Source: Aquisediminimonas profunda
GTDB lineage: Bacteria; Pseudomonadota; Alphaproteobacteria; Sphingomonadales; Sphingomonadaceae
NCBI RefSeq assembly: GCF_019443285.1
Contig: NZ_CP080327.1
Coordinates: forward strand, 124,001 to 188,000
DNA length: 64,000 bases
Direction: 5' to 3'
Part shown: in pieces, positions 6,578 to 50,926 of the stretch
Layout of the letters: every line of letters begins with the position of its first letter
Numbering within the stretch: position 1 is the stretch's first letter
Program-made: the position numbers and the translations under genes
The notes under the pieces: generated by a model
What the model was told of the DNA's origin: nothing
Seen by the model: only the letters and a program-made list of their open reading frames with translations
The model's database searches: none

Positions 6578-7618
6578 ATGACCGACAGCCTCACCATCCG
6601 GCGCCCCGATGACTGGCACGTCCATCTGCGCGATGGCCCCATGTTGCAGGCCGTCTTGCCTTATACGGCACACCAGTTCGCGCGCGCGATTGTCATGCCC
6701 AACCTGTCTCCGCCCGTAACCAATGTAGCCGAAGGCCTTGCTTACCGCTCACGGATAGAAGCGGCGATTCCTGCGGGCATGGACTTCACCCCGCTGATTG
6801 TTGCCTATCTGACTGACAGCAGCGACGCCGATGAAATCGCCCGTGGCCATGCTGACGGAGTGTTCACGGCGTGCAAGCTCTATCCCGCGCACGCGACAAC
6901 CAATTCGGCTCATGGTGTGACGGACATTCGCAACATCATGCCCGTGCTCGAACGAATGCAGGCGATCGGCATGCCGCTGCTCGTGCACGGCGAGGTGACT
7001 GATCCGACGACGGACATTTTCGACCGCGAGGCGATCTTCATCGAGCGTATCCTCGCACCCCTGTCACGGCAGTTGCCAGCGCTCAAGATTGTCTTCGAAC
7101 ACATCACGACCGCAGACGCGGCAGACTTTGTAGCATCAGCGCCGGCCAACATTGCCGCGACGATCACACCCCACCATCTGCATATCAACCGCAACGCGAT
7201 GTTTGCAGGCGGTATCCGTCCCCATGCCTATTGCCTGCCGGTCGCCAAGCGGGAACAGCACCGGCTGGCGATCCGCAAGGCGGCTGTATCGGGCTCACCC
7301 AAATTCTTCCTTGGCACGGACAGCGCACCGCACGCACGCCACACCAAGGAAGCAGCCTGCGGCTGTGCGGGCATTTTCAACGCGCCCTATGCGCTTGAAA
7401 GCTATGCGGCCGCCTTCGACGAGGACGGCGCGCTCGACAGGCTGGAAGGCTTTGCATCAGAATTCGGGCCGCGCTTTTATGGGCTTCCGCTCAATTCCGG
7501 CTCAGTCACGCTGGAACGGCACCCCTTGCAAGTGCCGGACCGGATCGCCGCAGATGGAGCCGAGCTGGTGCCGTTTCACGCCGGGGAAGCAATTGGCTGG
7601 AGGCTTCTAAGTCACTAG
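6578..7618 (+). CDS. pyrC: Dihydroorotase (pyrimidine biosynthesis)
   Basis: A 346-residue dihydroorotase of the E. coli PyrC type, which cyclises carbamoyl-aspartate to dihydroorotate. Metal and substrate residues are visible in order: [20 protein letters not shown] (carboxylated Lys), [24 protein letters not shown] and GTDSAPH. The ATG at 6578 yields [20 protein letters not shown], the usual amino terminus. It is divergent from ygfZ. Confidence 0.97.
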
Positions 7619-44646: not shown

Positions 44647-45817
44647 ACGCTTCATCGCAGCCGGGTTCGGGCTTTTGGCGCTTCTTCCCGGCTGCGTCGC
44701 AAGCATCGCGCCACGGTCATCCTATCGGGCGACTGTCATCGTCTCCTTTGCTGCGGATGGATCGGAAAGCGCCCGCGCCGCAGGCATTGCGGACCCGGCA
44801 ACCCGCCGCCGGGTCACCGCGGATGACCCTGTGCGGATTGCCTCAATCTCCAAGCTGGTGACAGCGCTTGGCGTGATGCGGCTCACCGAAGCCGGGACCC
44901 TCTCGCTCGATCGCGACGTGTCGGACTGGCTGGGCTGGCGATTGCGCAATCCGGCATTTCCCGATGCTCCCGTGACGCTCCGCATGCTCCTGTCACACCG
45001 GTCGAGCCTGACGGATGGCGCCGACTATGTCGTTCCGCTTGGCGAGACACTGGAACAGCGACTTCGCGATCCCCGCGCCTGGGATACAGAGCATCGGCCA
45101 GGCAGTTATTTTCGCTACACCAATCTCAACTTTCCCGTCGTCGCCAGTGTCATGGAAAAGGCGACGGGCGAGCGCTTTGACCGGTTGATGGCGAGGCTAG
45201 TCTTTGCTCCCCTGAAGATCGATGCGTGCATGAACTGGACAAGCTGCAGCGACGCGGCCATTTCCCGCGCCGTGGTACTGAACGACGCTGAAGGGAATGT
45301 TCGCCGGGACGATCTCAAGGGCATCCGGCCGACCTGCCCCGTGGTTCCGGCAGCGGACGGATCCTGCGAGCTTTCCGCTTACCAGCCTGGCACCAATGGC
45401 GCGCTCTTTTCGCCACAGGGCGGCGTGCGTATCTCCATGCACGACCTTGGCAGGATCGGCACAATGATCCTGCGCGGGGGAGACGGGTTCCTTTCGGCCC
45501 AGTCGATTGCCGCGCTGATTGGTCCGGAGTGGCGCTTTGACGGCACGAATGGGGATACCGAAAAGGGTTTCAATTGTACCTATGGTCTGGCTGTCCAGAC
45601 CCTGTCGACCGCCCGGCCCGGCTGCAAGGATGATCCCTTTGGCGACGGAAAACCCCGGATCGGGCATGCCGGGGAGGCCTATGGCCTGCGATCAGGACTT
45701 TGGCTGGATCGCGACCGCAAACGCGGGATCGCTTTTTTCACAACCGCCATTCCTGACGATGCCTCTTCCGGACGATCAGCCTTTACGACGGCTGAAGAAG
45801 CCATCCTGCGACGCTAG
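44639..45817 (+). CDS. Serine hydrolase, beta-lactamase class C / esterase type
   Basis: A 392-residue lipoprotein (LLPGC, Cys19) of the penicillin-binding-protein-like serine hydrolase family. The three active-site elements are visible: S69-I-S-K72 (SxxK), YTNLN and HAG (GHAGEAYG). It could be an esterase, D-amino-acid peptidase or beta-lactamase-like enzyme; I cannot choose. It begins with TTG inside the nitronate monooxygenase gene. Several cysteines (CMNWTSC, CPVVPAADGSC) may form disulfides in the periplasm. Confidence 0.85.
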   Translation: MTRRFIAAGFGLLALLPGCVASIAPRSSYRATVIVSFAADGSESARAAGIADPATRRRVTADDPVRIASISKLVTALGVMRLTEAGTLSLDRDVSDWLGWRLRNPAFPDAPVTLRMLLSHRSSLTDGADYVVPLGETLEQRLRDPRAWDTEHRPGSYFRYTNLNFPVVASVMEKATGERFDRLMARLVFAPLKIDACMNWTSCSDAAISRAVVLNDAEGNVRRDDLKGIRPTCPVVPAADGSCELSAYQPGTNGALFSPQGGVRISMHDLGRIGTMILRGGDGFLSAQSIAALIGPEWRFDGTNGDTEKGFNCTYGLAVQTLSTARPGCKDDPFGDGKPRIGHAGEAYGLRSGLWLDRDRKRGIAFFTTAIPDDASSGRSAFTTAEEAILRR

Positions 45818-46707
45818 AAATTACCGGCCAGCGCCAAAACCACGCCCATACCCACGGTCAACAGGCCTGCAAGTTCGCTTCGGGCCAAGGGCTCGCGCAG
45901 ATAATAGCGCCCGAAGGCCAGCGTAAAGATCACTTCCACTTGTCCGACGGCCCGAACAAGCGCGACAGGCGCAGTTGCAAAGCCCGTGAACCAGCAGGCG
46001 GACCCCATCGCCGCGAGCAGCCCGACTTGACTCGAAACCCGCCAGCTTCGCGCGATGCGGGCCAGCTGTTCGCGCTCCCGAACTGCGACATAGGCGCCCT
46101 GCAACAGGGCCTGGAGCCCGAGAACCGCCACGAGCGTCACCAGCGCTGCAAGCACCTTGTCCGTCGTCTCTACCACCAAAGTCGCGCGCTTGATGAACAC
46201 GGACGTAAGTGCGAACAGGAGCCCGGCCCCCAGCCCACACAGCGCCGCAGGCTGAGCAAGGTCGCTCAGGCGAGGCCGTTGCCCGCCAGCCGACAGGACG
46301 ACGACACCGACAACGCCAACGCCGATGCCGATCCAGGTGAGGACGGACAGGTGTTCGCCCAGCAGGATCATCGCAAGGATTGCGCCCTGCACGGCTTCGG
46401 TCTTTGCATAGGCAGAGCCGACCACATAGTTGCGAAATCCGAAGGCGAGAATCAGAAGGTTCGTGCCAAGGATTTGCGCCACGCCGCCCATAGCGGCATG
46501 GACCCAGAAGCCATCATGATGGCCCGGCAGCGAAGCCTGCGAGAAGAACAGATATGTGGCGAGCAAGAGGCAGCCGACCGGAAACCCGAAGAGATAGCGC
46601 ACCAGCCCGGCGGCATTGACTGAAAGTTCGGCCCGCACGCGCTGCTGCACTGCTGTCCGCCAAGCCTGGAACAGCCCGGCGAGAAGTGTGGCGGGAAGCC
46701 AGATCAC
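45814..46707 (-). CDS. DMT-superfamily (EamA-like) transporter
   Basis: A 297-residue protein with ten hydrophobic helices in two EamA-like halves (the first includes GEHLSVLTWIGIGVGVVGVVVLS, the second ends YYLREPLARSELAGLLTVGMGVVLALAG). It is probably a metabolite exporter. The GTG at 46707 overlaps the fumarase stop (GTGA) and is preferred over an ATG further upstream inside fumarase. It is therefore the second gene of the fumarase unit, and its stop overlaps the serine hydrolase stop in CTAG. Confidence 0.85.
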   Translation of the reverse strand: MIWLPATLLAGLFQAWRTAVQQRVRAELSVNAAGLVRYLFGFPVGCLLLATYLFFSQASLPGHHDGFWVHAAMGGVAQILGTNLLILAFGFRNYVVGSAYAKTEAVQGAILAMILLGEHLSVLTWIGIGVGVVGVVVLSAGGQRPRLSDLAQPAALCGLGAGLLFALTSVFIKRATLVVETTDKVLAALVTLVAVLGLQALLQGAYVAVREREQLARIARSWRVSSQVGLLAAMGSACWFTGFATAPVALVRAVGQVEVIFTLAFGRYYLREPLARSELAGLLTVGMGVVLALAGNF

Positions 46708-48224
46708 GCGGGCTGCAACAACCCTTCCTCGGCAATCTTCTTTCTCCACACGAGCGGAGCGGTCACATGGACATTTTCACCCTGGCTGTCGACCGCCACC
46801 GTGACAGGCATATCCTGCACAGTGAATTCATAGATCGCTTCCATCCCGAGGTCCTCGAAGCCGACGACCTTTGATGCCTTGATGGCGCGGGCGACGAGAT
46901 AAGCCGCGCCACCGACAGCCATCAGATATGCCGACTTGTGGTTTGCGATACTCTGCGTCGCAGCCGGCCCGCGTTCTGCCTTGCCGACACAGGCGAGCAA
47001 GCCCTGATCGAGCATCATGTCCATGAACTTGTCCATGCGGGTCGCTGTCGTCGGGCCGGCCGGGCCGACAATCTCATCCCGCACGGGATCGACCGGTCCG
47101 ACATAGTAGATGACGCGGCCCTTGAAGCTGACGGGCAAGTCCTCACCTTTGGCCAGCATGTCAGCGATACGCTTGTGCGCGGCATCGCGGCCCGTGAGCA
47201 TCTTTCCGTTGAGAAGCAGCCGGTCACCCGGCTTCCAGCTGGCAACGATTTCGGGTGTCAGCGTGTCAAGATCGACATGGATTGCAGCCTTGTCCGGCGT
47301 CCAGTTCACGTCCGGCCAGTCAGAGAGCTTGGGTGGCTCGAGATAGGCCGGACCGGACCCGTCGAGATGGAAATGCGCATGGCGCGTGGCGGCACAGTTC
47401 GGAATCATCGCCACCGGCTTCGAAGCCGCATGCGTCGGATAATCCATGATCTTCACGTCGAGAATCGTCGCAAGGCCACCCAGCCCTTGCGCCCCGATGC
47501 CAAGCGCATTCACCTTGTCGAATATCTCGATCCGGAGGCGCTCGATGTCGTTCTGCGGCCCGCGTGCCTTCAACTGGGCCATGTCGATGTCACCCATCAG
47601 CGATTCCTTGGCGAGCGTCATGGCCTTTTCCGCCGTTCCGCCGATACCGATCCCGAGCATGCCCGGCGGGCACCAGCCGGCGCCCATCTGCGGGACCATC
47701 TCCAGTACCCAATCCACAATGGAATCCGAAGGGTTGAGCATCTTGAACTTGGACTTGTTCTCGCTGCCGCCGCCCTTCGCAGCAACTTGCACGTCGACAT
47801 GATGGCCCGGCACCATTTCAAGGTTCAACACGCATGGTGTATTGTCCCGCGTGTTGACCCGCGTGAAAGCCGGATCGGCAAGGATCGAGGCGCGCAGCTT
47901 GTTGTCCGGGTGGAGATAGGCACGGCGCACGCCTTCATCGACGACGTCCTGCAAGGCGCGATCAGAGTCGAGCATGCAGCCCTGCCCCCATTTGATGAAG
48001 ACAGTGACAATGCCCGTGTCCTGGCACAGCGGGCGATGGCCTTCGGCGCACATGCGGCTGTTGGTCAGGATCTGGGCAATCGCATCCTTGGCCGCCGGGC
48101 CCTGTTCTGCGCGATAGGCATCCCCCAACGCACGGATATAATCCATTGGGTGGTAATAGGAGATATATTGGAGCGCGTCGGCAACGCTCTCGATGAGATC
48201 CGCTTCACGAATGATGGTCGGCAT
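46704..48224 (-). CDS. fumA: Class I fumarate hydratase (4Fe-4S)
   Basis: A 506-residue iron-sulfur fumarase that hydrates fumarate to malate in the TCA cycle. Cluster cysteines lie in RPLCQDTGIV, GAGWCPPGMLG and IPNCAATRHAHF. The C-terminal half is the swivelling beta domain (GDRLLLNGKMLTGRDAAHKR). Its ribosome binding site is enclosed in a perfect hairpin (48225-48260) that abuts the ATG. The 3' end overlaps the DMT transporter start. Confidence 0.95.
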   Translation of the reverse strand: MPTIIREADLIESVADALQYISYYHPMDYIRALGDAYRAEQGPAAKDAIAQILTNSRMCAEGHRPLCQDTGIVTVFIKWGQGCMLDSDRALQDVVDEGVRRAYLHPDNKLRASILADPAFTRVNTRDNTPCVLNLEMVPGHHVDVQVAAKGGGSENKSKFKMLNPSDSIVDWVLEMVPQMGAGWCPPGMLGIGIGGTAEKAMTLAKESLMGDIDMAQLKARGPQNDIERLRIEIFDKVNALGIGAQGLGGLATILDVKIMDYPTHAASKPVAMIPNCAATRHAHFHLDGSGPAYLEPPKLSDWPDVNWTPDKAAIHVDLDTLTPEIVASWKPGDRLLLNGKMLTGRDAAHKRIADMLAKGEDLPVSFKGRVIYYVGPVDPVRDEIVGPAGPTTATRMDKFMDMMLDQGLLACVGKAERGPAATQSIANHKSAYLMAVGGAAYLVARAIKASKVVGFEDLGMEAIYEFTVQDMPVTVAVDSQGENVHVTAPLVWRKKIAEEGLLQPA

Positions 48225-48260
48225 GGCGAGCCCCTGAGAATTGGCAAACAGGGGCTCGCC
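48225..48260 (-). promoter_or_regulatory. Perfect 12-bp hairpin enclosing the fumarase ribosome binding site
   Basis: On the minus strand, GGCGAGCCCCTG, a 12-nt loop and CAGGGGCTCGCC form a perfect 12-bp stem. Its last base touches the fumarase ATG. The only Shine-Dalgarno-like sequence (AGGGG) lies in the 3' arm, so folding would hide it from the ribosome. It could also terminate the upstream hydroxylase operon (stop at 48274), but no U-tract follows. Confidence 0.6.
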
Positions 48261-50470: not shown

Positions 50471-50926
50471 TCACTTGCCTCCTGCGACGGAATGGATTGC
50501 GGCGCGGATCCGCGTGTAGGTTCCGCAGCGGCAAATGTTTGTCATCGCCTCGTCAATCTGTGCGTCGGTCGGTTGGGGGGTCGACTTGAGCAGGGCCGTT
50601 GCCGCCATGATCTGGCCAGACTGGCAGTATCCGCACTGGGGTACCTGATGATCGATCCAGGCTTGCTGGAGCGGGGAGAGCGTGCCGTTCGACCCCAATC
50701 CTTCGATCGTGGTCACGGACTTGCCCGCAACCTCTCCGACAGGTAACGAGCAGGACCGGACCAGTTCTCCGTCGACATGGACACTGCATGCACCACACGC
50801 TGCAATCCCGCAGCCGAACTTCGTGCCCGTCAGCCCCAATTCTTCGCGCAGGGCCCAGAGCAGTGGTGTATCGGGTTCTCCGGCAAACGAAACCTCCTTG
50901 CCATTGACCTGCGCAGCTATGACCAT
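50471..50926 (-). CDS. 2Fe-2S subunit of the molybdenum hydroxylase
   Basis: A 151-residue electron-transfer subunit with two [2Fe-2S] clusters. The plant-ferredoxin-type cysteines lie in [13 protein letters not shown] and RSC, and the helical-domain cysteines in CGYCQSG and CRCGTYTR. It is partner to the next gene (IorA-type). There is no separate FAD subunit, as in IorAB enzymes that pass electrons to a cytochrome. Confidence 0.93.

Follow-up and report, generated by a model that had tools for sequence, protein, structure and literature searches.

The start codon of the fumarase gene in the window (the whole stretch of 64,000 nucleotides analysed here, from Aquisediminimonas profunda) directly follows a perfect 12-bp hairpin, whose 3' arm holds the gene's Shine-Dalgarno (SD) sequence and whose 5' arm is overlapped by a sequence resembling a promoter, one that recurs at a similar position in most other members of the genus examined. 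We propose that this hairpin is a start-site-dependent translation lock, a model to which, taken in full, we give an even chance. The fumarase ribosome-binding site would form the 3' arm, and the gene's own promoter would supply the 5' arm with its -10 element and discriminator. RNA from that promoter would start within the 5' arm, lose most of it and be translated normally, whereas read-through RNA from the xanthine-dehydrogenase-like (xdh) operon upstream would carry both arms, fold into the full 12-bp stem and allow no fumarase translation; Rho may then shorten the untranslated read-through RNA. Such a lock, which would most likely act only on RNA from the neighbouring operon, is a neat, unproven, lineage-specific case of a known trick.

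Gene context and structure of the hairpin

The genes concerned are these:

45814..46749, minus strand: transporter-like gene with weak DMT/EamA-type NCBIfam matches, overlapping the end of the fumarase frame
46704..48224, minus strand: fumarase, class I, Fe-S type, 506 aa
48274..50469, minus strand: molybdopterin-binding (large) subunit of the xanthine-dehydrogenase family, 731 aa, co-directional with fumarase and upstream of it, the presumed source of read-through RNA
50471..50926, minus strand: Fe-S small subunit of the same xanthine-dehydrogenase-like enzyme, the gene with which the presumed upstream operon begins

The fumarase start codon is backed by relatives with starts that align at the same place, and NCBIfam marks the product as the Fe-S type (class I), a kind of enzyme that the preliminary description had called a sensible target of control. 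The gap from the xdh stop to the fumarase ATG is 49 bp; the hairpin, beginning 13 nt past the stop, is its only strong hairpin, and neither a terminator-like site nor a U-tract terminator was found in it. Direct reading and folding give the parts of the hairpin as follows:

48260-48249, minus strand: 5' arm GGCGAGCCCCTG, overlapping the predicted promoter at its -10 element and discriminator
48248-48237, minus strand: loop TTTGCCAATTCT, 12 nt
48236-48225, minus strand: 3' arm CAGGGGCTCGCC, holding the SD AGGGG, its final base directly preceding the ATG

All 12 of the 12 base pairs, 48260-48249 with 48236-48225, are Watson-Crick, and the fumarase ATG (48224-48222, minus strand) stands immediately 3' of the stem. 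The preliminary description had claimed a perfect 12-bp stem that ends at the base before the ATG and contains the SD; both points hold, the SD-like run AGGGG lying at 48235-48231 within the 3' arm, 6 nt from the ATG, in a genome that has GGATCACCTCCTTT, the usual 16S 3' end. Folded in isolation, the hairpin reaches -26.0 kcal/mol, a value equalled by none of 200 shuffles. It is the sole perfect inverted repeat of at least 11 bp (loop 3-30) across the 64-kb window; shuffled windows (n = 12) hold on average 0.25 inverted repeats of at least 12 bp. Even when as many as 3 mismatches are tolerated, the 3.4-Mb genome holds the dyad at a single site, and the same is true of the 9-bp arms with a variable loop; a dispersed REP-like repeat and a multi-target operator are rejected on that single-copy occurrence. 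An Rfam scan of the whole window returned one tRNA and no match at the hairpin. The 7-mer TGCCAAT of the loop (48247-48240) recurs near the end of the xdh frame (48296-48289, minus strand), which may be chance.

A perfect dyad that spans the -10 element and the predicted start could in principle work as DNA, the 36 bp binding a regulator over the start site. We regard such an operator as very improbable: the genome offers no further copy even at 3 mismatches, no regulator was found among the six neighbouring proteins scanned, and the dyad is absent from relatives.

Computed strength and rarity

When the RNA comes in from the upstream side, the computed cost of opening positions -15 to -4 of the fumarase start is 21.5 kcal/mol, compared with a median of 5.6 and a maximum of 16.2 for 153 control genes of the same genome, taken as the first ATG of frames of at least 200 codons with AGG, GGA or GAG at -15 to -4, a rule under which some of the control starts may be wrong. 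With the whole stem present, freeing the SD alone is computed to cost 18.5, 16.0 and 14.0 kcal/mol at 37, 50 and 60 C, respectively. By computation, then, the long RNA has its SD in a strong stem, of the kind that defines the T4 gene e case, and on these energies the intact 12-bp stem should block initiation. A simple RNA thermometer is rejected, the stem being too stable by these computed values, and the temperature control that had been suggested for this leader becomes unlikely.

To place the hairpin among comparable repeats we sampled 464 kb of the same genome (the window plus 20 stretches), which contain 10 inverted repeats of at least 12 bp. Two of these lie within 12 nt of the start codon of a frame of at least 120 codons: the fumarase hairpin itself (ATG, distance 0) and a repeat preceding a TTG, with a T-rich tail on its other strand. 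One 11-bp repeat within a predicted frame also adjoins an ATG (L108 12970-13019). With an assumed total of about 3,300 genes, the number of start-adjacent 12-bp repeats expected per genome is roughly 0.05 from the density in shuffled sequence and 0.3 from the real density, so that rarity by itself is no proof of function. Separately, the first 20 kb of a contig of this genome (L106) holds two long inverted repeats, at 154-207 and 7203-7290, with 14- and 29-bp arms; both share AGGCAGGGGCCT / AGGCCCCTGCCT and probably belong to a dispersed repeat family.

The main rival to the lock model arises here, namely that the structure is due to chance or is neutral: the arms would have come to match by drift, would be tolerated since the native mRNA starts in the 5' arm, and would have no selected function. 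In its favour, we estimate that chance alone would place a start-adjacent repeat of this length in something like 5 to 30% of genomes; the perfect 12/12 pairing and an opening cost beyond that of all 153 control genes tell against it. Weighing these points together with the comparative evidence below, we think this explanation rather unlikely, if the strongest of the alternatives.

Promoter and predicted transcription start

The rules that we applied are those published for promoters of Sphingomonadales. Housekeeping promoters of Zymomonas mobilis, of the same order, are described as having TTGNNN and TANNNN elements and most commonly a 6-bp discriminator (PMC7566282). In a set of nine species, Novosphingobium aromaticivorans among them, a spacing of 17 bp and a distance of 6 bp to the start are reported as the most frequent (PMC8407463). 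Upstream of fumarase the following elements are predicted:

48287-48282, minus strand: predicted -35 element TTGCAA, within the final codons of the upstream xdh gene, starting at -63
48263-48258, minus strand: predicted -10 element TAAGGC, separated from TTGCAA by an 18-bp spacer; CTAAGGC is common to 8 of 10 other genus members
48249..48253, minus strand: predicted transcription start, best guess 48251, from promoter rules with a 6-nt discriminator

Eight of the ten other genus members whose 5' end could be read have TTG-N3-N17-TAAGGC, in all 8 with a C before TAAGGC, starting at -59 to -62; the motif is absent from the two others (L082 and L093). The pattern TTG-N20/21-TAAGGC has 4 sites on both strands of the 464 kb, one of them in the window, and even a generic TTG-TA pair stands at that position in only 9 of the 153 control genes. 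Applied to fumarase here, the rules place +1 at 48251, a C, with a leader of 27 nt; applied to the 8 relatives they give a purine at +1 in 8 of 8 and leaders of 24-27 nt. The C at +1, the spacer of 18 where 17 is commonest, and the missing motif in two of ten genus members all count against the lock model.

The 5' arm of the hairpin covers about -9 to +3 of this predicted promoter, so RNA from the gene's own promoter should be without most of the arm. For the predicted RNA from 48251, 3 of the 12 pairs are left and the computed opening cost falls from 21.5 to 5.0 kcal/mol, a normal value, and this difference between read-through and predicted native RNA supports the model. In the 8 relatives the cost is 2.5-6.0 in read-through RNA and 1.7-6.2 in predicted native RNA. 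The lock reading hinges on the exact start: freeing the SD is computed to cost 7.2 kcal/mol from 48253 and 12.4-12.7 from 48255 or 48256, and a start at either of the latter positions would keep the SD locked. On the promoter evidence, the main fumarase RNA probably begins inside the 5' arm.

Such a start bears directly on the preliminary description, in which the main fumarase mRNA is locked and temperature, a protein or a small RNA releases it. Its claim that folded RNA blocks initiation stands, on computed energies, for the intact stem, which hides the SD almost completely; it does not carry over to the predicted own-promoter RNA, which has ordinary accessibility. With the promoter overlapping the 5' arm, the main RNA should lack it; freeing the SD of a whole stem would still cost 14.0 kcal/mol at 60 C; the hairpin has no Rfam match; and its absence from relatives argues against a small-RNA or protein switch devoted to it. 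The reading of a locked fumarase mRNA is thus probably wrong, and its regulated form we consider improbable. A transcript starting inside the hairpin had been named there as grounds for abandoning the proposal, and the promoter evidence favours just such a start, near 48251, as predicted. The suggested coupling to upstream transcription survives as a link with its sign reversed, since the upstream transcripts would be the locked ones.

At three loci (L084, L086 and L087) small inverted repeats, seen by eye, lie just before the fumarase start (near position 1495), across the predicted start site and just upstream of CAACAGGA. They vary in sequence yet keep pairing: CCGG-AAAT-CCGG, CCCAGA-AA-TCTGGG and CCGGT-GAAA-ACCGG.

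Comparison among fumarase loci

Of 13 genomes of the genus, the window's included, 12 have fumarase; the 5' end could be read in 10 besides the window, the comparison leaving out L090, L092 and L094, whose matches are without it. Inspected by eye, none of these ten shows the hairpin, and the conservation in related species that had been put forward as a check is absent. The chance explanation gains from this.

For a wider comparison we kept 86 distinct fumarase loci, the window included, after dropping duplicate upstream sequences and loci that had too little sequence or lacked a start codon in the frame expected. The opening cost in the window is the highest of the 86, followed by 15.9, 14.7 and 13.6 kcal/mol. 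SD accessibility at the 85 other loci is like that of the 153 control genes (Mann-Whitney P = 0.90), and a conserved leader element or riboswitch is rejected, given this result, the lack of the hairpin in relatives and the lack of an Rfam match. Nor does a close co-directional neighbour predict a hidden SD (25 versus 61 loci, medians 5.2 versus 5.4, P = 0.67), in a test that called upstream genes by codon-position GC, a rough criterion, counted two loci with too little upstream sequence among the 61 and had G411, discussed below, outside its set. Several tight junctions have an open SD, for example those at L027 (2.4) and L047 (3.6). A general rule that a tight upstream neighbour means a hidden SD is not supported across the 86 loci, which counts against the lock model and sits well with chance.

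The second-highest read-through cost, 15.9, belongs to the fumarase of another sphingomonad (L020, 2938-3001). Here an unrelated co-directional gene ends 76 nt upstream, the 5' arm occupies the spacer and -10 part of the promoter and so again precedes the predicted start, and the predicted native RNA has an open SD, at a cost of 5.7. On these computed values, L020 fits the start-dependent lock model.

Some further observations were made on these loci. In L011, L129, L130 and L133, the GGGCC-TGTTC that immediately precedes the ATG is able to pair with GAACA...GGCCC, which lies around the -35 element and spacer, and the read-through cost is 7.4-10.3; the effect is weaker in L131 (6.8) and L128 (4.7). 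The fumarase of L051, from a record titled Bacillus sp. 2B10, is 85% identical to the window's and probably comes from a mislabelled sphingomonad assembly. L136 and L147 (G334 and G409) each have one stop codon within the fumarase match, a sequencing error or a pseudogene.

Junctions of xdh with fumarase

Two genus relatives read upstream (L087 and L016, by eye from translations) have an sdhA-like gene in place of xdh, and among 95 loci with fumarase matches, some of which end soon upstream, an xdh gene occurs at the window's own two only. Across 397 family genomes, among the matches listed and judged by eye, xdh adjoins fumarase in the window and in G276. In a different genus, that of G276 (g68; 45 genomes, 35 with xdh somewhere, 40 with fumarase, 30 loci read) xdh adjoins fumarase at 3 of the 30 loci: G276, G405 and G411. 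A search for a close relative with the same junction, in which conservation of the pairing could be followed, found none.

These junctions differ in how they are built. In G276 a 152-nt spacer holds a GC stem followed by TTGGCTTTT, a U-tract terminator, and the SD is open (5.7); G405 has the same stem and tail. The spacer in G411 is 70 nt, without the G276-type terminator, and has an unrelated hairpin (-22.0) right before the ATG, with an opening cost of 12.0 for read-through RNA, against 3.1 for the native RNA predicted there. Thus a hairpin covers the region of the fumarase start at both tight xdh-fumarase junctions, in the window and in G411, and in the two terminator-bearing junctions no start-region hairpin was found, a contrast among four genomes that was spotted after the fact. 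The different hairpin at G411 and the missing terminator in the window's own gap argue for the lock model and against chance.

It might instead be that the hairpin belongs to the 3' end of the xdh mRNA, as a terminator without a U-tract or as a structure that halts 3' exonucleases after Rho termination. Its place 13 nt past the xdh stop, as the sole strong hairpin of the gap, would suit such an element, as would the terminators of G276 and G405 at the corresponding junction. The stem, however, is followed by ATGCCGACC, with 1 T in the next 8 bases, whereas among 23 intergenic repeats of at least 10 bp that were sampled, 12 are flanked on one side by 8 bases with 4 T or more; moreover, the arm coincides with the SD and ends exactly at the ATG. 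Nor do xdh genes elsewhere carry such an element. In 42 distinct xdh 3' flanks (window, G276 and G405 not among them; best perfect hairpin per 90 nt), a stem of at least 7 bp with a T-rich tail was found in none, and a stem of at least 7 bp in 3, G411 being one. We judge a 3'-end element unlikely. An intrinsic terminator in the strict sense, a GC stem with a U-tract, is rejected for want of a U-tract after the stem, and a terminator travelling with the xdh operon is rejected on the count of 0 in 42.

Implications and comparison with known systems

Should the lock model be right, the hairpin would take the place of a terminator between two adjacent operons, and an ordinary chromosomal enzyme gene would be using a device of phages and transposons, by which only RNA from the right promoter is translated. 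The case also cautions that DNA by itself does not reveal whether a hairpin locks an SD: the start site must be known, for a sequence that locks one transcript can be almost nothing to another. One conceivable though unlikely reading goes further. Switching on the xanthine-dehydrogenase-like operon would send untranslatable RNA over the fumarase promoter and lower a TCA-cycle enzyme in cis, much as long undecoded transcripts do in yeast; with a -10 element doubling as an anti-Shine-Dalgarno arm, such locks could easily arise wherever a short-leader promoter comes to lie behind an unterminated operon, and G411 and perhaps L020 would be further cases. A literature search in which fumarase was little queried by name and most subscription papers were outside reach turned up no fumarase leader of this kind.

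RNA thermometers hold an SD in a stem, as the fumarase hairpin does. Unlike these, the fumarase stem is perfect, GC-rich and 12 bp long, has an SD that would still cost 16.0 kcal/mol to free at 50 C, and is not conserved.

In the fold-back protection of IS10 and IS50, RNA from an outside promoter folds over the transposase ribosome-binding site, and RNA from the element's own promoter stays open. The fumarase read-through RNA would likewise fold over its ribosome-binding site, and own-promoter RNA would not. There, however, the gene is that of a mobile element and the outer arm is the element's end, whereas here the outer arm would be part of the promoter core.

Another likeness is offered by type I toxin mRNAs, tisB and dinQ among them: a 5' stretch silences the mRNA, and its removal makes the mRNA translatable. 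There that stretch is cut off by RNA processing; in fumarase the RNA would lack it from the outset, owing to where transcription starts.

The closest parallel is with T4 gene e. As described for T4 (PMC3014915), the long early RNA of this gene forms an inhibitory structure and gives 100-fold less lysozyme, and RNA from the late promoters is made without the 5' portion of that structure. As with gene e and I-TevI, RNA from an upstream promoter would hide the fumarase ribosome-binding site in a stem; as with gene e, RNA from a promoter just upstream would lack the 5' strand of the stem and be translated, that promoter sitting in the very region that encodes the 5' strand (PMC3014915). Gene e is a phage late gene, whereas fumarase is a bacterial chromosomal enzyme gene, and the start, the read-through and the block (100-fold), which for T4 are reported as measured (PMC3014915), are for fumarase all three predicted.
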